The notes under the pieces are model-generated. The model made no database searches and was not told the origin of the DNA. It worked only from the letters and a program-made list of their open reading frames with translations. Positions 46,353-62,339 of a stretch of 64,000 nucleotides of DNA are shown piece after piece. Source of the stretch: Pigmentiphaga humi (GTDB taxonomy: Bacteria; Pseudomonadota; Gammaproteobacteria; Burkholderiales; Burkholderiaceae_B); assembly GCF_900606115.1 (NCBI RefSeq), contig NZ_UWPJ01000026.1, positions 62,001-126,000 on the forward strand. Reading direction: 5' to 3'. Both the position numbers and the translations under genes were made by a program. Position 1 is the stretch's first letter. Each line of letters opens with the position of its first letter.

Positions 46353-46413
46353 CGCCTGCTCCTGCTTGATAAATTGTCCCTATCATATAGCGGCGGCCCG
46401 CCAGGCCGGACCG

Positions 46414-47073
46414 CTAGCAGCTCCAGCTGCCCAGCATGCGATGGACAGGCACGCGGGCAATCTGTCCCGACTGCCACGCAACGACGGGAAGCGGCCCGCC
46501 GCCGCCGGCGCTGGTCACGATGGCGGCCATCCAGTCCGGCTCGAGCAGGAAAACGGCCGCATGCCATTTCCCCGCCGGGGCTCTCAGGCGCTGTTCCCCG
46601 GCCTCTTCCCGCAACCCCACGTCGCGCATGGCGCCGGGAAACTCAAGGCCGGCCGCCTTGACGAAGGCTTCCTTCAAGGTCCACAGCAAATAGAAATAAG
46701 TCAGTTGCAGCGCAGCGGCTTGTCCGTGCAAGATCTCGCATTCCGCGGGATCGCATACCCACTGCGCCAGGCGCAGGACGTCCCGCGGCTTGATCCGCTC
46801 CAGATCGACGCCGAGCTTGCCGCCGGCCGCGCGGGCGCACAGCGCGTGGCCGCCACTGTGACTCAGCGACCACACCCCGGCGCTGGCGACGTCGAGCTCC
46901 GCCATCAATGCGCGGCTGACGCGCCAATCGAGCTCGGCCTTGCCGCGGCGGGCTCCGCCTGCGCGCATGCGATCGGCCTCGGACAGGCACGCTTCCGAAT
47001 AGGCCTGCGCCGCGGCGGGACCCGCCCAGCCCACGTGCAAGACTGTGCTTGCCGCCACATCGGTCGTCTTCAT
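46414..47073 (-). CDS. 4'-phosphopantetheinyl transferase of the aryl-polyene-type cluster
   Basis: A 219-residue Sfp-type enzyme that installs the phosphopantetheine arm on acyl carrier proteins. The metal-site motifs are GVDLERIKPRD near residue 110 and WTLKEAFVKAAG near residue 150. The start MKTTDVAASTVLHVG at 47073 is chosen by homology; the frame is open for 15 more residues. Divergent from the ketosynthase/ACP operon over only 50 bases, it is the obvious activator of the two ACPs at 48615 and 48889. Confidence 0.9.
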   Translation of the reverse strand: MKTTDVAASTVLHVGWAGPAAAQAYSEACLSEADRMRAGGARRGKAELDWRVSRALMAELDVASAGVWSLSHSGGHALCARAAGGKLGVDLERIKPRDVLRLAQWVCDPAECEILHGQAAALQLTYFYLLWTLKEAFVKAAGLEFPGAMRDVGLREEAGEQRLRAPAGKWHAAVFLLEPDWMAAIVTSAGGGGPLPVVAWQSGQIARVPVHRMLGSWSC

Positions 47074-47123
47074 GGTGCGCACAATATAGGGTAAATTCGT
47101 GACTATTCGTAAAATCACGCAGC
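47074..47123. promoter_or_regulatory. Divergent promoter region of the polyene cluster
   Basis: Fifty AT-rich bases between the phosphopantetheinyl transferase and the ketosynthase operon. Two ATTCGT copies lie 10 bases apart (47095-47100, 47105-47110), and CGTGA / TCACG (47098-47102 and 47115-47119) form a dyad. Together these could be a one-helical-turn operator. No -10/-35 is asserted. Confidence 0.5.
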
Positions 47124-47846
47124 ATGGTTACTTTTTCGATAGCGGACTGGCAAGCTTGGGCGCCGCACATCCACGACACGCCCGCTTGGCAGACGTGGGC
47201 TCGGGCGCCCTATTGTCCGGCCGGCGACGATGCCCCGCCCCGCTTGGATTTCCTGCCTGCCATGCAGCGCCGCCGGCTCGGCGCCCTCGCGCGCATGGTG
47301 TTCGCATGCGCCTGGCCGCTCGCCGAGGGGCGTGCGAACCTGCCCGTGGTCTATGGCTCGCAGCACGGGGAAACCACGCGCGACATCGAACTGCTCCTCG
47401 ACCTGGCTCGCGGCGAACCGCTGTCGCCCACGTCCTTCGGCCTCTCCGTGCATAACGCCGTGGCCGGGCAATGGACCATCGCCCGCGGCGAAACCGCGGA
47501 AACCGTGGCGCTGTCGGCGGCGCATTGCGGCGCCGAGCACGCCTTCCTCGAAGCCTGCGCCCTGCTGCGGCAAGGCTATGAAGCCGCGCTCGTCGTCCTC
47601 GCCGAAGAACTCCCGCCCGCACCGTATCGGCCCTGGATCGCCGATGTGCCGTTTTCCTACGCGGCGGCGTTCCGCATCGAGCCCGGCCAGGACTGGCGGC
47701 TTGCGCCGTCCGATCCGCCGGCGTGCTCGCCGGCCCCTGCCTGGCCCAGTCCGCTGAACCTCGTGCGCAACCTGGCGCTCGGCTCGCCCGGCTGGCATCA
47801 CATCGAAAACGGACACGCATGGCAATGGACGCACCTCGATCGCTAG
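47124..47846 (+). CDS. Ketosynthase-like chain-length factor
   Basis: A 240-residue truncated beta-ketoacyl-synthase-like protein (the N-terminal half only) that matches the chain-length-factor family of aryl polyene clusters. The segment corresponding to the nucleophile (SVHNAVAGQW) lacks the active Cys, so it cannot condense by itself; it should partner the full ketosynthase at 59418 or 57037. In this role it sets polyene length. It starts the rightward operon; its stop overlaps the acyltransferase start by 28 bases. Equivalent to ApeC. Confidence 0.85.
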   Translation: MVTFSIADWQAWAPHIHDTPAWQTWARAPYCPAGDDAPPRLDFLPAMQRRRLGALARMVFACAWPLAEGRANLPVVYGSQHGETTRDIELLLDLARGEPLSPTSFGLSVHNAVAGQWTIARGETAETVALSAAHCGAEHAFLEACALLRQGYEAALVVLAEELPPAPYRPWIADVPFSYAAAFRIEPGQDWRLAPSDPPACSPAPAWPSPLNLVRNLALGSPGWHHIENGHAWQWTHLDR

Positions 47847-48634
47847 CGCCGCAGCGCCAGGACGCCTGGCTCTGGCGCCTGGTCGCAACGGGCGCGTCTT
47901 TCGTCCTGTTCGGACTCGGCGGCCTGGCCCTGCGCCTGTTCGTCTTCCCGCCGCAGGGCCTGCTGCCCGGCAGCCGGCGCGTGCGCCAGCGCCGGGCGCG
48001 CCGCGCCATCGGCGGCAGCTTCCGCTGGTTCATCCGCTTCATGGTCCGGGCCGGCATCCTGACCGTCGATTTCCGCGGCGCCGAGCGGCTCGGACGCCCC
48101 GGCCAGCTCATCGTGGCCAACCACCCGTCGCTGCTGGACGTGGTCTTCCTGATCGGCCACGTCGACGGCCATGCCAATTGCGTCGTCAAGCACGGGTTGG
48201 TCACCAACCCTTTCACGCGCGGCCCCATACTCAGCGCGGGCTATATTACGAATGACCAAAGCCTGGAAATGCTGGATCGCTCGGCCGAGGTATTGAAGCA
48301 AGGCGAGGCCCTCATCATTTTCCCCGAGGGTACCCGCACGCCGGTCGGCAGCTTGCCGAAACTCCACCGGGGAGCCTGCGCCATTGCCCTGCGAGGCGCG
48401 CAGGTGGTCACGCCGGTCGTCATCCGCATGACGCCGCGCAGCCTGACCAAGGGCGAGCCCTGGTACCGCATCCCCTACAGGCGCATGCGATACAGCATCC
48501 ACGTCGGCCCGGACATCGACCCGGCCCGGTGGCGCGACAGGCACTCCCCTCCCATCGCCGGCCGTTTGATGAACGATTTTCTCCATGACTATTTCGCGTC
48601 GGAACTGAACCACCATGCAGGCACTGGAAACTGA
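47819..48634 (+). CDS. 1-acyl-glycerol-3-phosphate-type acyltransferase
   Basis: A 271-residue PlsC-family acyltransferase with an N-terminal membrane segment (about residues 16-40). VANHPSLLDVVF carries the HX4D catalytic motif near residue 103, and FPEGTRTP lies near residue 163. In the polyene cluster it would transfer an acyl group to or from a lipid anchor. Its reading frame overlaps both neighbours. Equivalent in position to ApeD. Confidence 0.9.
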   Translation: MAMDAPRSLAPQRQDAWLWRLVATGASFVLFGLGGLALRLFVFPPQGLLPGSRRVRQRRARRAIGGSFRWFIRFMVRAGILTVDFRGAERLGRPGQLIVANHPSLLDVVFLIGHVDGHANCVVKHGLVTNPFTRGPILSAGYITNDQSLEMLDRSAEVLKQGEALIIFPEGTRTPVGSLPKLHRGACAIALRGAQVVTPVVIRMTPRSLTKGEPWYRIPYRRMRYSIHVGPDIDPARWRDRHSPPIAGRLMNDFLHDYFASELNHHAGTGN

Positions 48635-48875
48635 ACTCAAGAACCTCATCATCGAATCGCTGGGCCTGGAGGACGTGACGCCGGAAGACATCGATACGCA
48701 CGACGCGCTGTTCGGCGACGGCCTGGGGCTGGACTCCGTGGACGCGCTGGAGCTCGGGCTCAGCCTGCAGAAGAAATACGGCATCGCCATCGACCCCGAC
48801 ACCAAGGACCTGCGGCAGCATTTTTCCAGCGTCGCCCACCTTGCCGCCTTCGTCACCTCGAACCGCCGAAACTGA
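48615..48875 (+). CDS. Acyl carrier protein A
   Basis: An 86-residue acyl carrier protein. The phosphopantetheine attachment Ser41 is in GLGLDSVDALEL. The N-terminal helix MQALETELKNLIIESLGL is typical, and the whole has an acidic ACP composition. It overlaps the acyltransferase by 20 bases. Carries the growing polyene chain; matches ApeE by position. Confidence 0.95.
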   Translation: MQALETELKNLIIESLGLEDVTPEDIDTHDALFGDGLGLDSVDALELGLSLQKKYGIAIDPDTKDLRQHFSSVAHLAAFVTSNRRN

Positions 48876-48888
48876 CCGCCGATCCGCC

Positions 48889-49143
48889 ATGCAAACTCGA
48901 GAAGAGATCTACGCCGTACTGAGCAATGCCCTCGTCGAGCTGTTCGAGATAGAGCCCGAACGCGTGACGCCTTCGGCCAACCTGTATACCGACCTCGAAA
49001 TCGACAGCATCGACGCCATCGACCTGATCGACCACATCCGCCGCGCGACGGGCCGCAAGCTCGACGCCGCGGACTTCCGCTCGGTCCGGACGGTCGAAGA
49101 CGTCATCGAGGCCGTCTACCAGAAACAGCAGAACGCCGGCTGA
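48889..49143 (+). CDS. Acyl carrier protein B
   Basis: An 84-residue carrier protein with Ser40 in LEIDSIDAIDLIDHIR. A second ACP with a distinct sequence, 13 bases after the first, is standard in this cluster type (ApeF by position). One ACP is thought to carry the starter and one the elongating chain, but which is which cannot be read. The start MQTREEIYAVL is preferred over 48841. Confidence 0.95.
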   Translation: MQTREEIYAVLSNALVELFEIEPERVTPSANLYTDLEIDSIDAIDLIDHIRRATGRKLDAADFRSVRTVEDVIEAVYQKQQNAG

Positions 49144-49145
49144 GC

Positions 49146-49694
49146 ATGCGATCCGCCCTGGTCCCGGTCTCTCTCGCCGCCGGCATGGCCTATCCCTTCT
49201 GGGTCTATGCCGTGCAAGGCCGGGTCGAGCCGGCCTGGATCATGCTTCCGCTCTCGGCGCTGTGGCTGCTGCGCACCCTGCTGGCGCGGCCGGAAGAACC
49301 CGGGGGCCGGCTGCTGCCCGCGGCCGCCCTGGCCGGCTGCATCGCGCTGTCCTGCTCGGATGCCCAACTCTCGTTGCGCGCCTATCCTGTACTGGTCAGC
49401 CTGTTCATGCTGGCCATTTTCGGCGGCAGCCTGCGCTATGGGCCGCCCGTCATCGAGCGCCTGGCGCGCCTGCGCGAACCGGAGCTGCCCGAGCAAGGCG
49501 TGCGGTACACGCGCCGGGTCACGCAGGTCTGGTGCGTGTTCTTCCTGCTCAATGCCGGCGTCGCCGCCGCCCTGGCGCTGTGGGCCCCGTGGAGCTGGTG
49601 GACGCTCTACACCGGCGGCATCAGCTATGCGCTCATCGGCGCGCTGCTGGTGGGCGAGCGCGCGCTGCGCCCCTTCCTGCTGCGAGCGGCCTGA
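49146..49694 (+). CDS. COG4648-type membrane protein of the polyene cluster
   Basis: A 182-residue integral membrane protein with about five hydrophobic segments ([52 protein letters not shown]). It belongs to the small uncharacterised membrane family found at this place in aryl polyene clusters (ApeG). Starts 2 bases after the ACP stop and overlaps the next gene by one base. Confidence 0.85.
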   Translation: MRSALVPVSLAAGMAYPFWVYAVQGRVEPAWIMLPLSALWLLRTLLARPEEPGGRLLPAAALAGCIALSCSDAQLSLRAYPVLVSLFMLAIFGGSLRYGPPVIERLARLREPELPEQGVRYTRRVTQVWCVFFLLNAGVAAALALWAPWSWWTLYTGGISYALIGALLVGERALRPFLLRAA

Positions 49695-51415
49695 TGTCCG
49701 GGCATTGGGTAGCGCTGGCCGAGCTCCTCTCGGCGCCGGATCCTTCACGGCTGGCCGCGCACGGCCCCGCCATGACCCAGGCGGACCTGGCCGCCCGCAG
49801 CCTGGCGCTGGCCGGCGCGCTGGCGGCCGCGCAAGTCCGGACCGCGGGACTCTGGTTCGACGATGCCGCCGAACTGGCTTGCGCGCTGCTCGCATGCTGG
49901 CGAACGGGAACCCGGGCGATCCTGCCGAGCGACGTCCAGCCCGCCACCTGCGCGGAACTGGACGGCGAGATCGACCTCTGGCTCAGCGACGCGGCCTTGC
50001 CGGGCACCGCCGGCCGGACCGCGTCCCCGGCCGGCCTGATCGCGCAGACCGGCGCGGCGGCGCTGTCCGCCTGCCGCCTGGATCCGGCATCCGCCGGCAT
50101 CGTGCTGCTGACTTCCGGATCCAGCGGCAGTCCGAAGCGCATCCTCAAGACCTGGGATCAATTGGCCAGCGAGGTGGAAGCGCTCCAGCGCCAGTGGCCG
50201 GCCCATGCCGGTGCGACCGCCGCCACTGTGATGGGCAGCGTCAGTCCGCACCATATGTACGGCCTGATCTTCAGGGTGCTGTGGCCCTTGTGCTCGGGCC
50301 GCCCCATCCTGCGCCCCCAACTGGTCTATCCCGAAGAGCTCCAGCGCGCCGCCGCGCGCCATGCGCCGGCGATCTGGATCAGCAGCCCCGCCTTGCTGCG
50401 GCGTTGCGGTCCGGCCCTGGACTGGACCGCCCTCGGCTCCCGGGTCGAACGGATTTTCTCCGCGGGCGGGCCGCTGCCCGAAGAAACCGCCGGACAATTC
50501 GCCGCCAGGCTGGACCTGCTGCCGACCGAGATCTACGGCAGTTCGGAAACCGGCATCATTGCCTGGCGCCAAGGCGCCGGTCATTGGCGGGCCTTCGCCG
50601 GCGCCCGCATCGGCGCCGACGAACGGCAGGCACTGTGGGTGGAGTCCCCCTGGACCGCCCTGGCGCGCGAGCAGACCGCGGATACCGTCCGCCTCTGCGA
50701 TGCCGGCTTCGAGCTGCAGGGACGCCTGGACCGCATCGTCAAGATCGAGGAAAAACGCATCGCGCTGCCGGCGGTGGAACGTCTCCTCGCCAGGCATCCC
50801 TACGTGCACGAAGCGTACGTCGGCAAGCGCAAGGAAAATACCCGGCTCACCGCGCTCGCGGCCCTGACCCCGGCCGGCGTGCACGCCCTGCGCAATCAAG
50901 GCAGGCGCGCGCTGGTCGCGGCCTTGCAGGCGCATCTGCGGGAGCACCTCGCCTCCCTGGCGATCCCGCGCAGCTGGCGCTTCATGCAGCGCCTGCCCCG
51001 CAATGCGCAAGACAAGCTCGCGCTTCCCCTGTTCGAATCCTTGGCTGGCCCGCGGCCGACCGCTCCGCACCTGCTTGCGCTGCCTGCCACGGAAGCAGGC
51101 GAGCGGCGCTACGAAGTCGGCATTCCGCTGGATCTGGCATTTTTCTCCGGCCATTTTCCCGCGACGCCGGTCGTCCCCGGCGTGGCGCAAATAGGCTGGG
51201 CCTACGATACGGCCCGGCGCGACGTGTTTCCCGGCCTGGATTTCGGCGGCGTCGAAGTGCTCAAGTTCCAGAAACTGCTGCGCCCGGGCGACGTCGCCGA
51301 ACTCACCCTGCGGTGGAACGAAGCGAACGCCAAACTCTATTTCGCATTCAGGCTGGACGGCGAACCTTGCTCCTCCGGCCGCATCCTGCACAGGCCCCGA
51401 CATGCCGACGCATAG
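49694..51415 (+). CDS. AMP-ligase fused to a hotdog dehydratase
   Basis: A 573-residue bifunctional protein. Residues about 1-440 form an acyl/aryl-AMP ligase with the P-loop LTSGSSGSPKR near residue 137, EIYGSSETG and a late Lys (VKIEEKRI). Residues about 450-573 form a FabA/FabZ-like hotdog domain, with the catalytic His487 in FFSGHFPATPVVPG. It would activate the aromatic starter acid and carry out the dehydration that makes each double bond. In other clusters these are separate genes (ApeH and ApeI). Stop-start overlap of 1 base upstream; 14 bases downstream. Confidence 0.88.
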   Translation: MSGHWVALAELLSAPDPSRLAAHGPAMTQADLAARSLALAGALAAAQVRTAGLWFDDAAELACALLACWRTGTRAILPSDVQPATCAELDGEIDLWLSDAALPGTAGRTASPAGLIAQTGAAALSACRLDPASAGIVLLTSGSSGSPKRILKTWDQLASEVEALQRQWPAHAGATAATVMGSVSPHHMYGLIFRVLWPLCSGRPILRPQLVYPEELQRAAARHAPAIWISSPALLRRCGPALDWTALGSRVERIFSAGGPLPEETAGQFAARLDLLPTEIYGSSETGIIAWRQGAGHWRAFAGARIGADERQALWVESPWTALAREQTADTVRLCDAGFELQGRLDRIVKIEEKRIALPAVERLLARHPYVHEAYVGKRKENTRLTALAALTPAGVHALRNQGRRALVAALQAHLREHLASLAIPRSWRFMQRLPRNAQDKLALPLFESLAGPRPTAPHLLALPATEAGERRYEVGIPLDLAFFSGHFPATPVVPGVAQIGWAYDTARRDVFPGLDFGGVEVLKFQKLLRPGDVAELTLRWNEANAKLYFAFRLDGEPCSSGRILHRPRHADA

Positions 51416-52157
51416 ACTCTGCGCCATCGTGCCCGTCTACAACCACGGCGCGACGGTGGCCGGCGTAGTTCGCAGCCTGCGCGCCCAAGGCCTGGACACC
51501 CTGCTCGTGGACGACGGCTCCGCCCCCGACTGCGCCACGGTGCTCGACGGCCTCGTCCGCACCATCCCCGGCACCTGGCTCTTGCGCCGCCGCGACAACG
51601 GCGGCAAGGGCGCGGCCGTCCTGGACGGATTGCGCGCCGCCGCCGGCCGCGGCTACAGCCACGCGCTGCAAATCGACGCCGACGGCCAGCATGCGCTGGC
51701 GGACGTCGCGCAATTCGCCGCGCTGTCGAGGGCGCACCCCCAGGCCCTGGTGTGCGGCGCACCGATCTACGGCGACGATGCGCCCCGTGCCCGCCTCTAC
51801 GGACGCTGGATCACGCGCGTCTGGGTCTGGATCAACACGCTCGCCCTGGACATCCCCGATGCCATGTGCGGCTTCCGCATCTATCCCCTCGCCGCGACGC
51901 TGCCGGTCATCGACAACGCCAGCATCGGGCGGCGAATGGATTTCGACATTTCCATCATCGTCCGCCTGCACTGGCGCAACGTGCCCATGGTGTGGCTGCC
52001 GACGCGGGTCATGTATCCGGGTGACGGCATCTCGCATTTCCACGCGCTGCGCGACAACCTGCTGATCAGCAAAGAGCACGCGCGCCTGTTCTTCGGCATG
52101 CTGGGCCGCCTCCCCCTGCTGCTTGCCCGCCGCGCGCTGCGCAGGACCGGCGCATGA
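51402..52157 (+). CDS. Family 2 glycosyltransferase
   Basis: A 251-residue GT2 enzyme. CAIVPVYNHGATVAGVV near residue 6 starts the nucleotide-binding fold, VDDGSAPDC follows, and the metal-binding motif is in LQIDADGQH near residue 90. A hydrophobic C-terminus may anchor it to the membrane. In the cluster it would add a sugar to the polyene or its anchor. Equivalent to the GT half of ApeJ; here the acyltransferase is a separate gene. Confidence 0.88.
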   Translation: MPTHRLCAIVPVYNHGATVAGVVRSLRAQGLDTLLVDDGSAPDCATVLDGLVRTIPGTWLLRRRDNGGKGAAVLDGLRAAAGRGYSHALQIDADGQHALADVAQFAALSRAHPQALVCGAPIYGDDAPRARLYGRWITRVWVWINTLALDIPDAMCGFRIYPLAATLPVIDNASIGRRMDFDISIIVRLHWRNVPMVWLPTRVMYPGDGISHFHALRDNLLISKEHARLFFGMLGRLPLLLARRALRRTGA

Positions 52158-53086
52158 GGCCGGCATCCTCTCCCACGCACTGGGCGCGGCGCCCGGAGCG
52201 AGGCGCGAGCCTGCCGATGCGGGCAACGGCCTGGGCCGCGCGCACGCTGGGCCGGCGCGCCGTCGCCCCCGTGGTCTGGCTGGTCGTGCTGTACTTCTAC
52301 GCCACGGGCGGGGAAGCGCGGCGCGCCATCGCGGAATACCAGCGGCGCCTGGCGGCCCATGGCGGGGGGCCGGCGCTCTTTCCGGCGCGATTCCCCGTCT
52401 ACCGCCAATACCTGGCGTTCGCGTGCGCCTTGCTCGACAAGCTCGATACCTGGCAAGGCAGGATAGCCACCGGCGACGTGGACATCGAGGATCCGGACCG
52501 GCTCCGGGCCCAGATGGGCAGCGGTCCGGGGCAGATCCTGCTTTGCTCCCACCTGGGCAACGCCGAACTCTGCCGGGCCATCGCCAGCCACGAGCCGAAC
52601 CTGCGGCTCAACGTGCTGGTCCACAGCCACAACGCGGTGCGCTTCAACGCCTTGCTGTCGCAGGCGGGCGCCAGCCAGTTGAACCTGATCCAGGTCAGCG
52701 AGCTGGACGCGGCGACCATGCTGCACCTGAGCGAAAGACTCAAGCGCGGCGAATGGCTGGCCATCGCCGGCGACCGCACGCCGCTCCAGGGCAAGCGCGT
52801 CGTCCCGGTGACATTCCTCGGCGCCGATGCGCTGCTGCCGCAAGGTCCATGGCTGCTGGCCGGCCTGCTGCGCTGCCCCGTCAATACCGTGTTCTGCACA
52901 CGCCGGCGGGGACGCTACCGCATTGCCCTGCAGCGCCTGTCAGACGGACTGGCCTGGACGCGAGCCACCCGCGAGGCCGAAGTCTCGCGCGGCGCGCAGC
53001 GCTATGCCGACGTGCTCGCCGCGGCCTGCCGCGACGCCCCGCTGCAATGGTTCAACTTCTATCCCTTCTGGCAGAAACATGCGTAA
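52154..53086 (+). CDS. LpxL-type lysophospholipid acyltransferase
   Basis: A 310-residue protein of the LpxL/HtrB family, with an N-terminal membrane segment (AVAPVVWLVVLYFYATGGEA, about residues 32-51). CSHLGNAELCR carries the HX4E/D motif near residue 134, and LAIAGDRTPL is near residue 205. It would esterify the polyene acyl chain to a lipid anchor. Overlaps the glycosyltransferase by 4 bases and the thioesterase by 8, hence tightly coupled. Confidence 0.88.
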   Translation: MRPASSPTHWARRPERGASLPMRATAWAARTLGRRAVAPVVWLVVLYFYATGGEARRAIAEYQRRLAAHGGGPALFPARFPVYRQYLAFACALLDKLDTWQGRIATGDVDIEDPDRLRAQMGSGPGQILLCSHLGNAELCRAIASHEPNLRLNVLVHSHNAVRFNALLSQAGASQLNLIQVSELDAATMLHLSERLKRGEWLAIAGDRTPLQGKRVVPVTFLGADALLPQGPWLLAGLLRCPVNTVFCTRRRGRYRIALQRLSDGLAWTRATREAEVSRGAQRYADVLAAACRDAPLQWFNFYPFWQKHA

Positions 53087-53519
53087 ACGCGGCCTGCTCG
53101 GCATCGACATCCCCATCAAAGTGCCGTTCTACGACATCGATTCGCTGAACGTCGTCTGGCATGGCCACTACGTCAAGTATTTCGAAGAAGTCCGGTGCGA
53201 ACTGCTCGACGACATCGGCTACAACTACGACGACATGCTGCGCGACGGCTACGTCTGGCCCGTGGTCGACCTGCAACTGCGCTACGTCAAGCCCGCGACC
53301 TTCCGCCAGGCCCTCGATGTGCGCGCGGAACTCGTCGAATGGGAGAACCGGCTGCGCATCAACTACCTGGTCAGCTGCGCAGCGTCGGGGGCACGCCTGA
53401 CCCGCGGCACGACCACCCAGATCGCGGTCAGCGTCGCCACCCGGGAAATGCTCTACACCTCGCCGCCCTCGCTGGTCCAGGCCGTCGAGGCGGCGCTTAC
53501 CCGCCGGGGGTTTCGATGA
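53079..53519 (+). CDS. 4-hydroxybenzoyl-CoA thioesterase family protein
   Basis: A 146-residue hotdog thioesterase. VPFYDIDSLNVVWHGHYVKYFEEVR (residues about 16-40) holds the catalytic Asp/His-type motif of the 4HBT family. It could release stalled chains from carrier protein or the finished polyene. Position equivalent to ApeK. The start overlaps the upstream gene and its stop overlaps the next start by 4 bases. Confidence 0.9.
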   Translation: MRKRGLLGIDIPIKVPFYDIDSLNVVWHGHYVKYFEEVRCELLDDIGYNYDDMLRDGYVWPVVDLQLRYVKPATFRQALDVRAELVEWENRLRINYLVSCAASGARLTRGTTTQIAVSVATREMLYTSPPSLVQAVEAALTRRGFR

Positions 53520-54160
53520 ATTCCCTTCCACGCGCTGCCATGGGAACGGCAATGAACAGACGGACGCTGCTGAAGGCGATCATGGCCGCCGGCATCGCGG
53601 CCTGCGGCCCGGCCCATGCCTTCGGCCTGGGCGAACTGGAAACGCAGCTGCGCGCCTCGCCCGTCGTGCACGGGCGCTTCGTCCAGGAAAAATTCCTGCG
53701 CTCGCTGCCCCAGCCGTTGACCAGCCGGGGCGAGTTCACGCTCGCGACCGGCAAAGGCCTGCTGTGGCTGCTGCGCAAGCCCATCGAGCAGGAACTGCGC
53801 ATCACCGCCGACGGCATCGCGCGGCGGGACGAGCGCGGACAATGGACCGCGCTGCCGCGGCAATCGGGCGCCGGCCGCGCACACGGCCTGATGCTGTCCG
53901 TCCTGGCCGGCGACACCCGAGAGCTGCAAGAGAACTTCGACCTGGCTCTCGACGGCAGTCCGGACGCCTGGCGCATGACGATGACGCCGAACTCACCGCT
54001 GCTGCGGCAGATATTCGAGCGGATCGACATCGAAGGCGGCAGGACCATACGCCGGATCGAACTGCGCGAGGCCGCCGGCGACCGCACCGTCCTGAAGATG
54101 GAACAGGTACGGACCGCGCCCGCGCTGACTCCCGAGGAAGCCCGTGCCTATGCGGAATGA
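53516..54160 (+). CDS. LolA-like outer-membrane lipoprotein carrier
   Basis: A 214-residue exported protein: the signal sequence is LLKAIMAAGIAACGPAHA, ending near residue 35. The pattern LETQLRASPVVHGRFVQEKFLRSLPQPL then TLATGKGLLWLLRKPIEQEL is the LolA/LptA-like half-barrel. It would carry the polyene lipid across the periplasm. Position equivalent to ApeL. An internal Met at 53552 is an alternative start. It overlaps the exporter start by 17 bases. Confidence 0.87.
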   Translation: MNSLPRAAMGTAMNRRTLLKAIMAAGIAACGPAHAFGLGELETQLRASPVVHGRFVQEKFLRSLPQPLTSRGEFTLATGKGLLWLLRKPIEQELRITADGIARRDERGQWTALPRQSGAGRAHGLMLSVLAGDTRELQENFDLALDGSPDAWRMTMTPNSPLLRQIFERIDIEGGRTIRRIELREAAGDRTVLKMEQVRTAPALTPEEARAYAE

Positions 54161-56504
54161 GCGCTGGCTGCCGCGCCTGTTCCTGCTGTGCATGGCGGCG
54201 CTGCTGTGCACAGCGCTGTGGCAAGCCCGGCAGGGCTGGCCGGTGTCGTCCGGCCTGCTCGATCTCCTGCCCCAGGTCGCGAGCGATCCGGTTCTGCGCC
54301 AGGCGCAGGAGCGCGTCCAGGCGCCGTTGACGCATCAGCTCGTCGCGCTGCTCGGCGCCCCCGACAAACGCGAGGCGATCCGGCAGGCGCGCGACCTGAG
54401 CCAGCGCTGGCGGCAAAGCGGCCTGTTCGAACGCGTCCAGGTCGAATTCGAACCCGACCTGGAACAGCTCCGCGCCCGCCTCCTGGCCGGCCGCATCGCC
54501 ATGCTGCCGCCGCAGGCGCGCGCCCAGCTCGAACAGCGTCCCCAGGCCTATGCCGAACAGCGGGCGCGGGAGATCGGCGATCCCTTCTCGTCCGCTTCGC
54601 TCATTCCCCTGGACCAGGATTGGCTGGGCCTGGCGCGCCAGGCCGAACGCGCCCTCCAGCCTGACACCAGCCTGCAGCTGGATCCCGGCAGCGGCATGCT
54701 GCTCACCCGGCACGACGGCCTGACGTGGGCGCTGGTCCGCACCGAGACGCGCGGACGCGCCTTCGACCAGGACTCCCCGCCGCGGCTGGCGGACTACATC
54801 GGCCAGGAACAGCAACGGCTGCGGGCGGACGGCGCGCGCCTGCTCGCCACCGGCGGCATCCTGTACGCGGAGTCCGGCCGCAGCCTGGCCATGCGGGAAG
54901 GCGGCTGGATCAGCGCCTGCTCCATCGCCGGCATCGTCCTGATTCTGCTGCTCGCCTTGCGCAGCGCGCGGGCGCTGCTCAGCTTCATCGTCGTGGGCTG
55001 CGCGCTGCTCACCGGCTTCGTCGCCTGCGTCGCGGCGTTCGGCACCATCCACGTGATGACCCTGGTCGTGGGCGCGAGCCTCATCGGCATCGTGATCGAT
55101 TTCCCGCTGCACTGGCTGAGCAAGAGCCAGGACATGCCGGTGTGGCAGCCCTGGCGCGCCCTGGACCGGATCCGGTCCAGCCTCCGCATCAGCCTGGCCG
55201 CCAACCTGCTGGGCTACCTGGCGCTCGCCTTCACGCCGTTTCCCGCGCTCACCCAGATCGCGGTGTTCTCCTCCGCCGGCCTGCTCGGCGCCTATGCCTG
55301 CACCACCTGCCTCTTGCCGGCCCTGTTCCGGAACTGGCGTCCCGCCGTGCGGCCCCGCCGGTGGCTCTCGTACCTGCTCGGGCAGCGCGACCGGCTTGCG
55401 AGCCGACGCGGATTGCAGCTCGCAGGCGCCGTGCTTCTGGCCGGCTTCTGCGCGATCGGACTGGCCCGCCTCGACATGCGCGACGACCTGCGGCAATGGA
55501 TCAGCCTGCCGGCCGCCATGCAGGACGAAGCGCGGCAGATCGGCGCCATTACCGGCTTCATGCCGACCAGCCAGTTCTTTCTGGTGCGGGCCCCGGACGA
55601 CGACGAGCTGCTGCGCCGCCAGGCGCGCGTCGCCGCCGCGCTGGATACGCTCAAGGCCGAGGGCGGCGTGGGCTCGTACCTCGCGCTCAGCCAGCTGCTC
55701 TCCCCCTCGGACGTTCAGGTCCGCACCCGCGCGCGGCTGGCGGAACTGTCCGCCCAGGCGGCGCCATGGCAGCCATTCGACACGATAGGCGTACCGGCCG
55801 CGGCCATCCGGAACGAGTTGCTGCGCCTGGCGGATACGCCCGTGCTCGATATCCCGGCAGCCCTGGACGCTCCGTGGGCCGAACCTTGGCGCGACCTCTG
55901 GCTGGGCCGGCAAGCGGGCGCATCGGTGGGCCTCGTCACCCTGCAAGGCCTGCGCACCGTGGCGGCGCTGGACGCCATTGCACGCGCGGTGCCCGGCGTC
56001 GTTCTGGTCGACCAGAACGGCGAGCTGAACCGCCAGTTCGCGGCCACGCGCACCAAGGCCGCCGAACTCAAGGCCGCATCGTATGTGCTGGCCGCCGTGC
56101 TTCTGCTGGTCGTCCTCGGGCGCTCGGCCACCTGGCGCATCCTGTCCGTCCCCCTGCTATCGACCGCATGCACCGTGGCCATGCTCGGCATCGTGGGCCA
56201 GCCCTTGACCTTGTTCAGCATGTTCGGCCTGCTGCTGGCCTCGGCCGTCGCGGTCGATTACGCCGTGTTCATGCAGTCCGGCGCATCCAGCCCGCCGGTG
56301 CTGGCCTTCGGCGTGGCGCTGTCGGCCGCGACCACGCTGCTTTCGTTCGGTCTGCTGGGCCTGAGTTCCACGCCCGCGGTCTCGAACTTCGGACTGACCA
56401 TCGCGCTGGGCGCCGTGTTCAGCCTGATGGCGACCTTCCTGATCGTCTCGCCTCGCACCGGTGCAGGCACCCCCGCGGCCGTCCCGCAAGAGGCCGGAGA
56501 ATGA
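54144..56504 (+). CDS. MMPL/RND-type exporter
   Basis: A 786-residue membrane protein with an N-terminal hydrophobic segment and two blocks of about five helices each (about residues 250-430 and 640-770). A large periplasmic loop precedes each, typical of MMPL transporters such as COG4258 predicted exporters. In aryl polyene clusters (ApeM) the homologue exports the polyene lipid. It partners the LolA-like protein before it and the lipoprotein after it, forming a path from inner to outer membrane. Starts at 54144 or the in-frame ATG at 54150. Confidence 0.88.
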   Translation: MPMRNERWLPRLFLLCMAALLCTALWQARQGWPVSSGLLDLLPQVASDPVLRQAQERVQAPLTHQLVALLGAPDKREAIRQARDLSQRWRQSGLFERVQVEFEPDLEQLRARLLAGRIAMLPPQARAQLEQRPQAYAEQRAREIGDPFSSASLIPLDQDWLGLARQAERALQPDTSLQLDPGSGMLLTRHDGLTWALVRTETRGRAFDQDSPPRLADYIGQEQQRLRADGARLLATGGILYAESGRSLAMREGGWISACSIAGIVLILLLALRSARALLSFIVVGCALLTGFVACVAAFGTIHVMTLVVGASLIGIVIDFPLHWLSKSQDMPVWQPWRALDRIRSSLRISLAANLLGYLALAFTPFPALTQIAVFSSAGLLGAYACTTCLLPALFRNWRPAVRPRRWLSYLLGQRDRLASRRGLQLAGAVLLAGFCAIGLARLDMRDDLRQWISLPAAMQDEARQIGAITGFMPTSQFFLVRAPDDDELLRRQARVAAALDTLKAEGGVGSYLALSQLLSPSDVQVRTRARLAELSAQAAPWQPFDTIGVPAAAIRNELLRLADTPVLDIPAALDAPWAEPWRDLWLGRQAGASVGLVTLQGLRTVAALDAIARAVPGVVLVDQNGELNRQFAATRTKAAELKAASYVLAAVLLLVVLGRSATWRILSVPLLSTACTVAMLGIVGQPLTLFSMFGLLLASAVAVDYAVFMQSGASSPPVLAFGVALSAATTLLSFGLLGLSSTPAVSNFGLTIALGAVFSLMATFLIVSPRTGAGTPAAVPQEAGE

Positions 56505-57040
56505 AGATGCCCGCCCTGCTCCGTCGCATCGCGCTCTGCGTCATGCTGGCCTGGCTGTCGGCATGCTCGACCACGCCGCCGCTGCCGGCCCGCGAACACG
56601 ACTACGGCCTCCCGCGCTGGCTGCACGTCGTCCGCCAACACCCCGGGCAAGCGGATCAAGACAGCATGCTCGCCGTCCAGCGCGAGCAGGGCGCGACCCG
56701 CTGGTCCTGGTTCGACCCGCTCGGCGTGCCGCTCGCGCGCCAATTGCTCGACCAGGGAAACTGGCGCAGCGACGGCCTCGCCCCGCCCAATAGCGAAGCC
56801 AGGGAATTGTTCGCCGCGCTGCTGTTCGCCTGGACGCCGCACGACGCGCTGGACGCGGCCTACGGCGCGGGCTCGTGGCGGGAAGAACCGATGCGGGACG
56901 GCTGGCGCCGCACCCTGATCCGGGCCAACGCGCCATACTTCGCCATACGGGCTATCCATGCCGGACCGGCAGGCGTCCTGGTGATCGAGGATTCGCACGG
57001 AACACATTGGCGGGTCGCCCCGCTGGATACACGACCATGA
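56501..57040 (+). CDS. DUF3261 lipoprotein of the polyene cluster
   Basis: A 179-residue lipoprotein: the signal is about residues 1-20, with the lipobox AWLSAC. The mature sequence (GVPLARQLLDQGNW, then LFAALLFAWTPHDAL) matches the DUF3261 family, found next to aryl polyene exporters (ApeN). It likely receives the lipid at the outer membrane. Overlaps the exporter stop and the next start by 4 bases each. Confidence 0.87.
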   Translation: MKMPALLRRIALCVMLAWLSACSTTPPLPAREHDYGLPRWLHVVRQHPGQADQDSMLAVQREQGATRWSWFDPLGVPLARQLLDQGNWRSDGLAPPNSEARELFAALLFAWTPHDALDAAYGAGSWREEPMRDGWRRTLIRANAPYFAIRAIHAGPAGVLVIEDSHGTHWRVAPLDTRP

Positions 57041-58239
57041 AGACTTGGCTGGGACCTCCGGGCCTGGTATGCGCCCTGGGCAGCGGCATCGCCGAAGTGC
57101 GCGCCCGCCTCCATGCCGGCGACACGTCCGGCATGCGCCCGCGTGCCGGGTGGATAGCCGGCCGCACGCCCGTGCTGGGCGCCTATGAAGGCGTGCTGCC
57201 CGAATGGCCCGGGCACATCCCCGCGCACCATCGCACCCGCAACAACCGGCTGCTGCTGGCCGCCGCCCGGCAGATCGAGCCCGCCTTGCGCAATGCCCTG
57301 GCCCGCCATGGCGCCCATCGGGTCGCTGTCGTGCTGGGCACCAGCACATCCGGGGTCGACGACAACGTCGATGCCTTCCGTTCGCTGGCCGCCGACAACG
57401 CGTGGCCGGCCGCCTACGACTACCGCAGGCAGGCCCTGTCCTCGCCCTCCGCCTTCCTGTCGGACTGGCTGGGCGCCACAGGACCGGCCTACACCCTCTC
57501 CACGGCCTGCACCTCCAGTGCGCGCGCCCTGATCACCGCCCGCCACCTGCTGGCCATGGGCGTATGCGATGCCGTCGTCTGCGGCGGCGCCGACTCGCTG
57601 TGCCGGCTCACCATCAATGGCTTCGCCGCGCTGGGCGCCGTCGCGGACACCCTCTGCCGGCCGTTCTCGGCGCATCGCGCAGGCATCAACATCGGCGAAG
57701 CCGGCGTCGTCTTCCTGATGGAGCGCGATCCGGCGGCGCCCGGCTCGGTCGCGCTGCTGGGAGGCGGAGGCAGTTCGGACGCCTGGCACATGTCGGCCCC
57801 CGACCCCAGCGGCGCGGGCGCCGCCAAGGCCATGCGGGCGGCGCTGCAGGACGCCTGCGTGGAGCCCGAAGCGGTCGGCTGGATCAATCTCCACGGCACC
57901 GCGACCGAGCACAACGACGCCATGGAAAGCCTGGCCGTGCAGGCCATATTTCCGGACCTGGACGTGCCGTGCGCATCGACCAAGGCGCTCACCGGCCACA
58001 CGCTGGGCGCGGCCGGCGCGCTCGAGGCCGCCCTGGCCTGGCTGACCCTGGACCCCGCCAACCGCGACGGCGCCCTGCCGCCGCACGTCTGGGACGCGCA
58101 GCCCGACCCGGCGCTGCCCCGGCTGTCCTTCAGCACCGCCGGCCACCGCTATCCCCCAGGCTGTGCGCGCGTCGCCATGAGCAACTCGTTCGCTTTCGGC
58201 GGCAACAACACCACCCTCATCCTGGGGAGCGCCGCATGA
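57037..58239 (+). CDS. Beta-ketoacyl-ACP synthase (first)
   Basis: A 400-residue FabF-type condensing enzyme with an intact triad: Cys158 in STACTSSARAL, His286 in LHGTATEHND and His321 in LTGHTLGAAGALE. It would condense malonyl-ACP with the growing chain. Position equivalent to ApeO. Start at 57037 by ATGA overlap with the lipoprotein stop. Confidence 0.93.
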   Translation: MKTWLGPPGLVCALGSGIAEVRARLHAGDTSGMRPRAGWIAGRTPVLGAYEGVLPEWPGHIPAHHRTRNNRLLLAAARQIEPALRNALARHGAHRVAVVLGTSTSGVDDNVDAFRSLAADNAWPAAYDYRRQALSSPSAFLSDWLGATGPAYTLSTACTSSARALITARHLLAMGVCDAVVCGGADSLCRLTINGFAALGAVADTLCRPFSAHRAGINIGEAGVVFLMERDPAAPGSVALLGGGGSSDAWHMSAPDPSGAGAAKAMRAALQDACVEPEAVGWINLHGTATEHNDAMESLAVQAIFPDLDVPCASTKALTGHTLGAAGALEAALAWLTLDPANRDGALPPHVWDAQPDPALPRLSFSTAGHRYPPGCARVAMSNSFAFGGNNTTLILGSAA

Positions 58240-58694
58240 ACCCGCCTCTTCTGCGCGAGCTGCTGCCGCATGCCGGCGACATGGTGTTGCTCGACGAGCT
58301 GCTGTCCTGCGATGCGGAAAGCCTCAGCGCGCGGGCCGTCGTCAGGCCCTGCCCCTTCAGCCTGCCCGACGGCAGCCTGCCGCCCTGGCTCGGCCTGGAG
58401 ATGCTGGCCCAAGGCGTGGGCGCCTGGGCCGGCTGGCATGCCCGGCAGGCGGGAACCCCCGTCAAGCTGGGCTTCCTGCTCGGCACGCGGCACTACGCCT
58501 GCCATGCCGCAGGCTTCCCCGCCGGCGCCGTGCTCACGATCGCCATACGCCGCGCCATGCAGGACGCCACGGGCATGGGCGTCTTCGAATGCGAATTGCG
58601 CCAGGACGAGACCGTGCTGGCGCAAGCCCGCCTCAACGTCTATCAGCCGGCCGATGCCGCCCACTACACGCAGGAACCCGCCCCCCATGAATAA
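58236..58694 (+). CDS. 3-hydroxyacyl-ACP dehydratase
   Basis: A 152-residue hotdog protein, LLPHAGDMVLLDELLSC then LGLEMLAQGVGAWAGWHA (FabZ/ApeP-like). It would dehydrate 3-hydroxyacyl-ACP during polyene formation. This cluster has two dehydratase activities: this one and the domain fused to the AMP-ligase. Overlaps both neighbours by 4 and 8 bases. Confidence 0.88.
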   Translation: MNPPLLRELLPHAGDMVLLDELLSCDAESLSARAVVRPCPFSLPDGSLPPWLGLEMLAQGVGAWAGWHARQAGTPVKLGFLLGTRHYACHAAGFPAGAVLTIAIRRAMQDATGMGVFECELRQDETVLAQARLNVYQPADAAHYTQEPAPHE

Positions 58695-59418
58695 TCAGAC
58701 CGTCCTCGTCACCGGCTCCAGCCGGGGCATCGGCCGCGCCATCGCGCTGGCCCTGACCGACGCGGGCTACGACATCGTCGTGCATTGCCGCGCGGGCCTG
58801 GAACAGGCGCATGCCGTGCAGGCGGAAATCCTCGCCCGCGGCCGCCAGTCGCGCGTGCTCGCCTTCGACACGGCCGACCGCGCCCAATGCGCCCGGGTGC
58901 TGGAAGCCGACATCCAGGCGCACGGCGCCTACTACGGCGTCGTGCTCAACGCGGGCATCAGCCGCGACGGCGCCTTCCCGGCACTGACCGACAGCGACTG
59001 GGACCAAGTCCTGCGCACCAACCTCGACGGCTTCTACAATGTCCTGTCGCCGCTCAGCATGCCCATGATCCGCCGGCGCGCGCCGGGCCGCATCATCTGC
59101 ATGGCCTCGGTATCCGGCCTGGTCGGCAACCGCGGCCAGGTCAACTACAGCGCCTCCAAGGCCGGGCTCATCGGCGCCGCCAAGGCGCTCGCCGTGGAAC
59201 TGGCCAAACGCCGGATCACCGTCAACTGCGTGGCGCCCGGCCTCATCGACACCGACATGATCGACGAAGACGTACCCGTGGAAGAAATCCTCAAAGCCGT
59301 GCCGGCGCAGCGCATGGGCACACCCGAAGAAGTCGCCGCGGCCGTCGTGTTCCTGATGTCGCCCGGGGCGGCGTACATCACCCGGCAGGTGCTGGCCGTC
59401 AACGGAGGGCTGTGCTGA
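58687..59418 (+). CDS. 3-ketoacyl-ACP reductase (FabG-type)
   Basis: A 243-residue SDR: TGSSRGIGRAIA (residues about 9-20), NAGISRDG near residue 90, a Ser in ASVSGLVG near residue 140, and catalytic Tyr154 and Lys158 in YSASK. It reduces 3-ketoacyl-ACP, here in the polyene pathway (ApeQ position) rather than in housekeeping fatty acid synthesis. Its stop shares one base with the next start. Confidence 0.93.
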   Translation: MNNQTVLVTGSSRGIGRAIALALTDAGYDIVVHCRAGLEQAHAVQAEILARGRQSRVLAFDTADRAQCARVLEADIQAHGAYYGVVLNAGISRDGAFPALTDSDWDQVLRTNLDGFYNVLSPLSMPMIRRRAPGRIICMASVSGLVGNRGQVNYSASKAGLIGAAKALAVELAKRRITVNCVAPGLIDTDMIDEDVPVEEILKAVPAQRMGTPEEVAAAVVFLMSPGAAYITRQVLAVNGGLC

Positions 59419-60644
59419 TGCATCGCGTCGTCGTAACGGGCATGGGCGGAACCAGCGCGCTGGGAGATGACTGGCGCACCATCGACGCGGCGTTCCGCGC
59501 CGGGCGGAACGCGGTCCGCAGCATGCCCGACTGGGACAGGTATCCCGACCTGAACACCCGCCTGGCCGCCCCCATCGCGGGCTTCGCGCCGCCGTCCCAC
59601 TGGACCCGCAAGCAGCTGCGCAGCATGGGGCGGGTCTCTCAATTGGCCGTCTATGCCGCCGAGCGGGCGCTCGACGATGCCGGCCTGCTCGGCGATCCAT
59701 CGATCACCGACGGACGCATGGGCGTCGCCTGCGGCTCGTCCACCGGCAGCACCGCCGAGGTCAAGGCCTTCGGCAACATGCTGCTCAATGGCGTCACCGA
59801 CGCCCTCAGCGCCAACTCCTACGTGCGCATGATGCCGCACACGACCGCCGCCAACATCGGCATCTTCTTCTCCGCCAAGGGCCGCATCATCCCCACCTCC
59901 AGCGCCTGCACCTCGGGCAGCCAGGGCATAGGCTATGCGTTCGAGGCCATACGGTACGGACGCCAGGCCATGATGCTGGCGGGCGGAGCCGAGGAACTCT
60001 GTCCCAGCGAGGCCATCGTCTTCGACGCCCTCTACGCCACCAGCCAGAAGAACCAGACGCCGGAACTGACGCCGCGCCCCTACGACAGCCAGCGCGACGG
60101 CCTGGTCATCGGCGAAGGCGCCGGCATGCTGGTGCTCGAATCGCTCGACCATGCGCAGGCGCGCGGCGCCCGCATCCACGCGGAGATCGTCGGCTTCGGC
60201 AGCAACTCCGACGGCAGCCACATCACGCGGCCGGAATCGGCCACCATGCAGAAAGCCATGGAACTCGCCCTGGACGACGCCGGCCTGGCTCCCGAAGCCA
60301 TCGGCTACGTCAACGGCCACGGCACCGCCACCGAGCAGGGCGACATCGCGGAAACCCAGGCCACGGCGGCCGTGTTCGGCCCGCGCATCAGCCTCAGCTC
60401 CCAGAAGAGCTACCTCGGGCACACACTGGGCGCATGCGGCGCGCTGGAGTCGTGGTTCAGCATAGAAATGCTCAAGAACGACAGCTACGTCGGCACCCTG
60501 AACCTGGACCGCGTCGATCCGCTCTGCGCCGAACTCGACTACATCACCGGACAGCCCCGGCAGGCCAGCCACGAATTCGTCATGAACAACAACTTCGCGT
60601 TCGGCGGCATCAACACCTCCCTGATCTTCCGCCGCTGGCCGTAG
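59418..60644 (+). CDS. Beta-ketoacyl-ACP synthase (second)
   Basis: A 408-residue FabF/FabB-like enzyme with the Cys-His-His triad: Cys164 in SSACTSGSQG, His301 in NGHGTATEQGD and His335 in YLGHTLGACGALE. The presumed partner of the chain-length factor at 47124 in aryl polyene systems (ApeR position). Last gene of the core operon. Confidence 0.93.
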   Translation: MHRVVVTGMGGTSALGDDWRTIDAAFRAGRNAVRSMPDWDRYPDLNTRLAAPIAGFAPPSHWTRKQLRSMGRVSQLAVYAAERALDDAGLLGDPSITDGRMGVACGSSTGSTAEVKAFGNMLLNGVTDALSANSYVRMMPHTTAANIGIFFSAKGRIIPTSSACTSGSQGIGYAFEAIRYGRQAMMLAGGAEELCPSEAIVFDALYATSQKNQTPELTPRPYDSQRDGLVIGEGAGMLVLESLDHAQARGARIHAEIVGFGSNSDGSHITRPESATMQKAMELALDDAGLAPEAIGYVNGHGTATEQGDIAETQATAAVFGPRISLSSQKSYLGHTLGACGALESWFSIEMLKNDSYVGTLNLDRVDPLCAELDYITGQPRQASHEFVMNNNFAFGGINTSLIFRRWP

Positions 60645-60675
60645 ACCTCAGCCCTCAAGCTCATCCGGAGACCCC

Positions 60676-61104
60676 ATGAAACCCGTCACCCGCCTCCTCG
60701 CCGCCATCATGATCGCCCTGGCCATGGGCAACGCCGCCTATGCCGCGCGCGCCGGCAAGCCCATGCAGCTCCACCTGGACAACCCGATACGCACCCTCAA
60801 CACCGCCACGCCCGGCAAGACGGAAATCGAGAACGCGATCATCCGCGCCGGCATGCAGCGCAACTGGATCATCACGCGCAACGGCGACGGCACGCTCAAC
60901 GCCCACCTGGCGATACGCCAGCACACGCTGGACGTGACCATCGTCCTGAAAGACACCACCTACGACATCGTCTACAAGAACAGCACCAACCTGCAATACG
61001 CGCCCAACCCCGACGATCCGGCCCGCCCCATCATCCATCCCTCCTACGACAAATGGGTAGACAACCTGATCGGCGACATCCGGGTCCAGCTGGCGCAGCT
61101 TTGA
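60676..61104 (+). CDS. Unknown secreted protein
   Basis: A 142-residue protein with a clear signal peptide (residues about 1-23, LLAAIMIALAMGNAAYA). The mature part (ENAIIRAGMQRNWIITRNGDGTLNAHL, then RQHTLDVTIVLKDTTYDIVYKNSTNL) reads as an alpha/beta periplasmic domain; I do not recognise its family. It starts 31 bases after the polyene operon with a GGAG site, so it may be cotranscribed, but nothing ties it to the pathway. Confidence 0.7.
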   Translation: MKPVTRLLAAIMIALAMGNAAYAARAGKPMQLHLDNPIRTLNTATPGKTEIENAIIRAGMQRNWIITRNGDGTLNAHLAIRQHTLDVTIVLKDTTYDIVYKNSTNLQYAPNPDDPARPIIHPSYDKWVDNLIGDIRVQLAQL

Positions 61105-61166
61105 CGGGATAGCCGCCTTCACCGGCGCGTTGAGCGCCCACGGTCGATCCGGTGAGCGAATCGAAG

Positions 61167-62204
61167 TCAGTTGCCCCCCGCCGCGCCGCAAGCATGGCAA
61201 TAGTGCGCGAACGTGCTGCGCCGCGCATGGCATGCCGGGCACGGCTGGAACAATCCGATGCCGCAATGCGGGCAGAAATCCGTCTTGCCGTCCTTCAGGT
61301 CCACGCTACGCTCGCACCCCGGACACACCTGCTTGGCGAGCCTGGCCTGCGCAAGGTCGTAATCCAGCGTCCGCCGCCGTTCGGCATCGGATAGCTGCTC
61401 GGCCTGCTGCTGGCGCTGCAGATAGCGATTCAGCGCCACAATGGCCTGCCGCCCAAGCAGCACGGTCAATACAATTCCGACCGTATAGCGCACGTAGCCG
61501 CCATAGCTCGGCAGATAAGGCACGAGCTCGACGAAGAAGGCGAACAGCGCAAAGAAAATAAAGCCCCAGGCGAATGGCCAATAAGTGCTGTTGCGCTTAC
61601 GGACGAACAGCCAGCCGGCGATCACCAGCAAAGGGAGCGTCAAGGCGAGCCGGTACAAAAAGACCCGCAACTCCATCTTGCGCATAGCCGATTCCAGCTT
61701 GCCGCCGGCATCGCGCTCCAGCAGGCTCAGCTCGGTCCGGTTCAACTTCAACACCTGGTTGAGGTCCAGGAGCTGCTTCTCCAAACCCAACACCTGGCCG
61801 TCGCGGCGCTTCTCCTCTTCCATCAGCGCATCGAGCTGGCGCGAACGCTCGATTAATGCAGCATCCTGATCCGGCTGGCTCGTCGCGCGGCGCGTCGCGA
61901 CCCAGTTCGCGAAAGTCTCGCGCGCGGACAGCGACGCCTGCCGCGCCGCCTGCTGCTGCAGGCGGGCCTGCTTCAACTCGTCCTGCAGCGCATTGCGCTG
62001 CCGCTCGCCCGCCTCGATTTGCATGCGCAAAGGACCGGCGGCCTGCTTGTCGAGAAAATCCTCCTGCGTCAGCCGATGCTCGACGTTCGGCAGATCGCCC
62101 ACCACGGCGCCCCCGAGTCCGATCAGGAACCAGGCGAACGCGAAAGCCACCAGCCAGAGGCCACGGCGGAACCACTTTTCCGACCAACGCAGGGATTTGC
62201 TCAT
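61167..62204 (-). CDS. Zinc-ribbon membrane protein
   Basis: A 345-residue protein with an N-terminal helix (about residues 15-36) and a coiled-coil-rich periplasmic or cytoplasmic part (about residues 45-160). Two or three central membrane segments follow near residues 190-260. A C-terminal double zinc ribbon has four Cys pairs (CPGC, CPHC, CPAC, CHAC, residues about 295-340). No enzymatic motif. Start at 62204 by position, with GGAGGG in front of it. Function unknown; zinc ribbons of this type often bind partners or nucleic acid. Confidence 0.75.
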   Translation of the reverse strand: MSKSLRWSEKWFRRGLWLVAFAFAWFLIGLGGAVVGDLPNVEHRLTQEDFLDKQAAGPLRMQIEAGERQRNALQDELKQARLQQQAARQASLSARETFANWVATRRATSQPDQDAALIERSRQLDALMEEEKRRDGQVLGLEKQLLDLNQVLKLNRTELSLLERDAGGKLESAMRKMELRVFLYRLALTLPLLVIAGWLFVRKRNSTYWPFAWGFIFFALFAFFVELVPYLPSYGGYVRYTVGIVLTVLLGRQAIVALNRYLQRQQQAEQLSDAERRRTLDYDLAQARLAKQVCPGCERSVDLKDGKTDFCPHCGIGLFQPCPACHARRSTFAHYCHACGAAGGN

Positions 62205-62329: not shown

Positions 62330-62339
62330 CCTGCTCGTT

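Follow-up and report, generated by a model that had tools for sequence, protein, structure and literature searches.

Gene content and layout of the locus

The stretch of DNA analysed here (the window, 64,000 nucleotides of contig NZ_UWPJ01000026.1 from Pigmentiphaga humi) carries a set of genes that we assign with high confidence to the biosynthesis, attachment and export of an aryl polyene (APE). Reading the stretch in all frames revealed an intact locus of 16 co-directional plus-strand genes spanning positions 47124–60644, flanked by a divergent minus-strand gene for a 4'-phosphopantetheinyl transferase (46414–47073) and by a last plus-strand gene downstream (60676–61104). None of these 18 genes contains an internal stop. 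An earlier, sequence-only reading had described 17 consecutive overlapping genes. Overlaps of 1–28 bases are indeed found at 13 of the 15 junctions among the 16 co-directional genes, but the transferase gene is divergent and two junctions are gapped (ApeE/ApeF, 13 bases; ApeF/ApeG, 2 bases). The gene names used here are those of the Escherichia coli ape cluster in Table 1 of PMC8253772, a paper that also gives the published gene roles. Comparisons were made with Pfam, NCBIfam, solved structures, 17 clusters of the same family (family loci), the E. coli CFT073 reference and 80 named loci. The latter are the best 80 of 535 confirmed relatives by ApeR alignment; most are from Pseudomonas, and the set is not that of all APE clusters. 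Each extends at most 10 kb to either side of ApeR, and some are shorter.

The phosphopantetheinyl transferase matches PF01648 (1.1e-13, for the longer open reading frame (ORF) 46414–47118) and carries GVD and WTLKEA motifs. The ATG at 47073 is its likely start, because the longer ORF shows homology to 11 divergent relatives from no earlier than its residue 24; this start leaves a 50-base divergent gap before ApeC. The same divergent arrangement next to ApeC occurs in 11 of the 17 family loci. The co-directional series opens with ApeC, the ketosynthase chain-length factor (47124–47846; PF13723 Ketoacyl-synt_2, 3.3e-64), and ApeD, a lysophospholipid-type acyltransferase (47819–48634; PF01553, 2.5e-15) with NHPSLLD and FPEGTR motifs. 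Two acyl carrier proteins (ACPs) follow, ApeE (48615–48875; PF00550, 1e-9; DSV) and ApeF (48889–49143; PF00550, 2.1e-11; DSI). For the next gene, ApeG (49146–49694), the Pfam search gave no family over cut-off; it is placed as a COG4648-type membrane protein by 43% identity to E. coli ApeG over residues 49–180 and by its identical position. A single fused gene (49694–51415) encodes ApeH and ApeI, i.e. an acyl-ACP synthetase of the adenosine monophosphate (AMP)-ligase type (PF00501, 3.2e-19; PF13193) joined to a dehydratase (PF22818 ApeI-like, 4.7e-14). The sequence-only reading had listed both domains correctly, but not as one gene. The two halves of E. coli ApeJ are conversely encoded here by two genes, a family 2 glycosyltransferase (51402–52157; PF00535, 4.9e-15; 55% to the N-terminal half of ApeJ) and a lipid A-type acyltransferase (52154–53086; PF03279, 4.2e-10; 34% to the C-terminal half).

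Downstream lie the thioesterase ApeK (53079–53519; PF13279, 8.5e-12), the LolA-like periplasmic carrier ApeL (53516–54160; PF03548, 1.1e-6) and the RND/MMPL-type exporter ApeM (54150–56504). The Pfam MMPL match of ApeM (12.4 bits) is under cut-off, as is an HpnN-like match (8.2e-12), and the protein used alone as a contig search query found no relatives. It aligns over nearly its full length with ApeM of 13 of the 17 family loci and of E. coli at 29–57% identity, the E. coli protein being at 29%; the alignment is only partial in L024, L027, L036 and L038. ApeN (56501–57040) is a DUF3261 LolB-like protein (PF11659, 1.2e-5; 25.7 bits, cut-off 22.3). The series ends with the elongating ketosynthase ApeO (57037–58239; NF006618, 1.1e-146), with its Cys-His-His motifs, the dehydratase ApeP (58236–58694; PF22817 ApeP-like, 2.6e-20), the ketoreductase ApeQ (58687–59418; NF004200, 7.6e-115, and TIGR01831 FabG2, 9.7e-113, both over cut-off) and a second ketosynthase, ApeR (59418–60644; NF006587, 3.7e-218). 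Pattern matching detected the active-site motifs of the two ketosynthases and the ketoreductase, of both ACPs and the ligase, and of the dehydratases and transferases. All protein types named in the sequence-only reading were thus recovered intact, with Pfam and NCBIfam matches far above chance.

That reading had ended the cluster at 60644. The ORF at 60676–61104 had been missed; in a two-sequence comparison it shows 36% identity to E. coli ApeA over 107 aligned positions (E 2e-20). An ApeA-like match lies 15–634 bases 3' of ApeR in 47 of the best 80 of 535 named loci, the other 33 having none at the cut-off. Because such a gene follows ApeR in 47 of the 80, the homologue is most likely part of the cluster here as well. 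The encoded protein looks exported and is cysteine-free, and so is not a lipoprotein as read. E. coli ApeA, in contrast, is a predicted lipoprotein encoded by the first gene, at the opposite end of the cluster.

Assignment to the aryl polyene family

The gene order from ApeC to ApeR is that of E. coli CFT073 apeC-R, as judged from the E. coli annotation together with sequence matches, and the core enzymes are closest to structures from APE clusters, both in agreement with the aryl-polyene type proposed earlier. ApeP has a single solved match at E <= 0.001, 6qsr_B, and the dehydratase half of the ApeH-ApeI fusion matches 6qsr_A (best) and 3esi_A; we take 6qsr to be ApeI/ApeP. At the same threshold ApeC finds 6qsp_B and 7f28_A only. 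The nearest solved chains of ApeO are 6qsp_A and then 7f28_B, and those of ApeR are 4ewg_A (1.2e-174) and 7f27_A (1.3e-152). In PMC8358021, 6QSP and 7F28 are ApeO-ApeC, 7F27 is ApeR and 4EWG an ApeR homologue.

The locus further holds the features that mark APE membership: the ApeC/ApeO pair, the second ketosynthase ApeR, the dehydratases ApeI and ApeP, the ketoreductase ApeQ, two ACPs, the acyl-ACP synthetase, and the genes for attachment and export (ApeD, J, K, L, M and N). Matched genes are collinear in all 17 family loci, within the limits that L027 is unmatched past ApeM, that L034, L035 and E. coli give no match for ApeN, and that some loci contain extra genes. Against E. coli, ApeN gave no tblastn match at 1e-3, and its placement rests on the DUF3261 domain.

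Several null results weigh against the assignment. No NCBIfam model is matched by ApeC or ApeN. No sigma-70-like promoter emerged from a simple scan. The cluster lacks ApeB of the E. coli type, and a genome search with the E. coli protein, made without a positive control, gave no match; this query does recover ApeB from L034 and L035. Lastly, the genome has no match to enzymes of the four 4-hydroxybenzoate or aromatic-acrylate families searched. Gene content, order, intactness, family membership and active-site motifs are direct observations on this locus, and taken together the data indicate that it is very probably a Bordetella/Achromobacter-type operon for making, attaching and exporting an APE. 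This type of cluster is already known, and the one described here is an intact, ordinary and slimmed-down form of it. The term "complete", used in the sequence-only reading, applies to a near-complete gene set, but not to E. coli-type ApeB, which is missing, nor to a starter-supplying enzyme, none of which was found in the genome.

Weak matches to the flexirubin-pathway models FlxB and LolA2_flexi could suggest a lipid pathway unrelated to APE, fatty-acid-like or of another type II polyketide synthase (PKS) kind, e.g. for a flexirubin or dialkylresorcinol. Both stay under their curated cut-offs (260.8 of 340 and 42.6 of 125, respectively), the StlD/DarB model gives ApeR 15.4 bits where 450 are required, and the best structure matches of ApeC and ApeO are the APE structures. 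We consider such a pathway very improbable.

Comparison with known clusters

The cluster of E. coli CFT073 (apeA-R, c1204-c1186) and the one described here share the order C-D-E-F-G-H-I-J-K-L-M-N-O-P-Q-R, and both include ApeA. They differ in that ApeA is last here, ApeB is absent, ApeH and ApeI are fused, and ApeJ corresponds to two genes. The fusion is the prevailing form in the family, being found in 15 of the 17 family loci; the genes are separate in L034, L035 and E. coli. The divergent phosphopantetheinyl transferase is a further difference, as the E. coli cluster has none according to PMC8253772.

ApeB of the E. coli type occurs in none of the best 80 of 535 named loci and in 2 of the 17 family loci. 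Conversely, an enzyme dependent on flavin adenine dinucleotide (FAD) and resembling tryptophan halogenases is encoded between ApeM and ApeN in 79 of the best 80 of 535 named loci and in 12 of the 17 family loci. No halogenase-like gene is present in the cluster of the window. The named locus without the FAD gene is L070 (Pollutimonas); of the five remaining family loci, L023, L031, L034 and L035 lack it and L027 has no match beyond ApeM. Homologues of this gene are called halogenases in a Lysobacter study (PMC3691225). Matches of >150 bits, irrespective of position within the locus, were found for an aromatic ammonia lyase in at least 62 and for another type of methyltransferase in at least 60 of the best 80 of 535 named loci; neither enzyme is encoded in the present cluster. 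Absence of the ammonia lyase or of ApeA from a named locus is not firm, because the loci end within 10 kb on either side of ApeR, and some sooner.

The clusters of the Bordetella/Achromobacter type (L069, L071–L074) have ApeM, ApeN and ApeR in the shared order, with ApeR 81–83% identical, and belong to the same group as the window in the four-gene tree (support 0.99). They carry the halogenase-like FAD enzyme between ApeM and ApeN whereas the cluster here does not, and an ApeA-like gene such as the one found here was seen in L069 only. Core genes and their order are also common to the Pseudomonas-type clusters and to that of a member of the same genus (G001), and in many Pseudomonas loci an ApeA-like gene lies 3' of ApeR, as in the window. 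The xanthomonadin and Lysobacter yellow pigment clusters are likewise of the type II PKS aryl polyene kind. As to features of the xanthomonadin type, the cluster here has no halogenase-like gene and PF21168, the family to which we take XanB2 to belong, is absent from the genome. According to PMC3691225, the Lysobacter cluster is also without a halogenase gene, and both the xanthomonadin and Lysobacter clusters hold xanB2 or a homologue for a 3-hydroxybenzoate starter.

Starter supply

UbiC is given as the source of the 4-hydroxybenzoate that E. coli uses for APE (PMC8253772). The UbiC family gave no match in the P. humi genome, with 34 of 61 genomes positive in the search of relatives. A profile built from 14 UbiCs of the family gave the same result and returned G001 as the only positive among 11 genus genomes; ten of the 11, i.e. 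this genome and nine others, are thus without UbiC. No chorismatase of the FkbO/Hyg5 type (PF21168) was detected in this genome. As a first run of that model gave no matches at all, controls included, it was run over 274 genomes of the class to show that it works, and 48 were positive. A Rv2949c-type lyase and an aromatic ammonia lyase were likewise not found in this genome, with three and five control genomes positive, respectively. Among the family genomes with the ApeC marker that were also searched for UbiC (G000, this genome, and G001, G013, G015 and G024), four of five have UbiC and only the present genome lacks it.

Incomplete assembly is unlikely to explain all of this, since completeness is given as 98.85% and UbiC is missing from nine of the ten other genus genomes as well. 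The lack in these nine suggests an unrecognised route to 4-hydroxybenzoate common to the lineage, which probably needs ubiquinone. We put forward, as a tentative possibility, that the APE is made without a recognised source of 4-hydroxybenzoate or coumarate, either via an undescribed 4-hydroxybenzoate-forming enzyme that would also feed ubiquinone, or from another starter acid.

Proposed pathway and alternatives

By analogy with named APE systems, from which every catalytic step as well as a yellow, membrane-bound pigment and a protective role of the product would be expected, the following pathway can be proposed. The phosphopantetheinyl transferase (46414–47073) would arm ApeE and ApeF, and the fused ApeH-ApeI would activate an aryl acid, most likely 4-hydroxybenzoate, before loading it onto ApeE. 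Extension with malonyl units by ApeR, ApeO/ApeC, ApeQ and ApeP/ApeI, with reduction and dehydration but never full reduction, would then yield a conjugated polyene. ApeK would release it, ApeD and both ApeJ halves would attach it to a lipid, and ApeM, ApeL, ApeN and ApeA may move or finish the product at the outer membrane. Because neither an ApeB-type methyltransferase nor a halogenase-like enzyme is encoded in the cluster, an unmethylated and non-halogenated head group is the simplest prediction.

The same machinery could accept an acid other than 4-hydroxybenzoate, be it another aryl acid, an imported acid or a non-aryl acid, and give a polyene with a different head; the absence of UbiC, the FkbO/Hyg5-type chorismatase, the Rv2949c-type lyase and the aromatic ammonia lyase from the genome speaks in its favour, as does the fact that this genome alone lacks UbiC among the five compared above. 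We nevertheless regard it as unlikely. ApeH is 49–57% identical to ApeH of nine family loci in the same tree group, and G013 and G015, which have clusters of this kind, hold UbiC, so that the same starter is likely here. The nine other genus genomes without UbiC suggest an unrecognised route present throughout the lineage. A different concern is that the cluster may be silent or deliver only a partial product, given the missing methyltransferase and halogenase-like enzyme. The FAD enzyme missing here is kept in nearly all named loci and in most family loci (79 of the best 80 of 535 and 12 of 17), and deletion of apeB in E. coli leaves immature APE carboxylic acids only (PMC8253772). Against this, none of the 18 genes contains an internal stop and motifs are kept, L023, L034, L035 and Pollutimonas L070 (with L031, probably the same genome as L070) likewise do without the FAD gene, and not one of the best 80 of 535 named loci has E. 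coli-type ApeB. A silent or half-finished pathway thus appears quite improbable, and an APE built on 4-hydroxybenzoate is the pathway that we prefer.

Distribution and history

Among the genomes searched, 2 of 11 from the genus and 34 of 200 from the family contain the ApeC marker domain. An APE cluster is present in named genomes of Bordetella, Achromobacter, Pollutimonas and Pseudomonas. For Bordetella, ApeR, ApeN and ApeM occur together in records named genomosp. 1, genomosp. 13 and sp. LUAb4. The earlier remark that such a product is not well described for Bordetella holds only for the product itself: the literature consulted on APE and Bordetella, mostly non-subscription, yielded no description of an APE product from this genus, but the genes are there in named records.

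In a phylogeny built with FastTree from ApeO, ApeP, ApeQ and ApeR (32 rows, FastTree local supports), the window belongs to a Bordetella/Achromobacter/Pollutimonas group (0.99). There it groups with L032, L024 and L069 (0.98), its position next to L032 (G198) having a support of 0.81 only. G001, the sole other APE-bearing genus-mate, groups with Pseudomonas (0.99), and its cluster carries an ammonia lyase and a methyltransferase.

The nine genus-mates without the marker domain retain the left flanking gene. In five of these nine cluster-free stretches the flanking gene and a tRNA-Pro gene stand in the orientation of the window with the cluster absent between them, at distances of 197, 198 and 203 bases (L059, L060 and L061), 327 bases (L064) and 1139 bases (L062). 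Relative to the three shortest, positions 46353–62321 of the window are absent and replaced by about 200 bases, the left flank ending at 46352 and the tRNA-Pro flank starting at 62321–62322. The tRNA-Pro gene is inverted and 1.7 and 6.5 kb away in L067 and L063, respectively, and no tRNA was present in the stretches fetched for L065 and L066. Two separate gains of APE clusters in the genus are the simplest reading of these data, though the genus-mates may instead have lost theirs. Base composition is neutral on horizontal gain and neither supports nor rejects it: the guanine-plus-cytosine (GC) fraction of 46001–60000 is 0.68–0.72, similar to that of much of the window (0.60–0.72). With the cluster positioned 5' of tRNA-Pro and no integrase match among the ORFs scanned there, an integrative element at this tRNA is not claimed.

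Neighbouring features

The gene at 44847–46352 encodes a ProA-like aldehyde dehydrogenase (157 bits, ProA cut-off 289) and is kept in nine of ten genus-mates. A minus-strand ORF (61167–62426) situated between the cluster and tRNA-Pro has a C-terminus resembling a zinc ribbon (below cut-off) and would not fit into the three shortest empty sites. On the 3' side of tRNA-Pro (62417–64000) the GC fraction is lower, at 0.60 for 62001–64000, and nine genus-mate stretches gave no blastn match beyond ~62470. An ORF at 63339–63863 matches the phage replication protein G2P weakly (17.4 bits, cut-off 25). Another element may be present in 62417–64000. Further away, an Rfam match to the cspA thermoregulator leader was recorded at 35869–36225 on the minus strand (90.7 bits). 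Among the relatives, the match to ApeC is split in two in G191 (L036), and L024 (G190) matches ApeM with two separate segments, possibly because of frameshifts or assembly errors.

Implications

The value of this locus is mostly one of annotation: a very common bacterial cluster family gains a slimmed-down member. It also means that two different versions of the APE cluster occur within one genus, and that the site of at least one of the two is unoccupied in several genus-mates. The point worth specialist attention is the missing source of the starter: following it up may lead to an unrecognised 4-hydroxybenzoate enzyme, which ubiquinone synthesis in these bacteria would need too.

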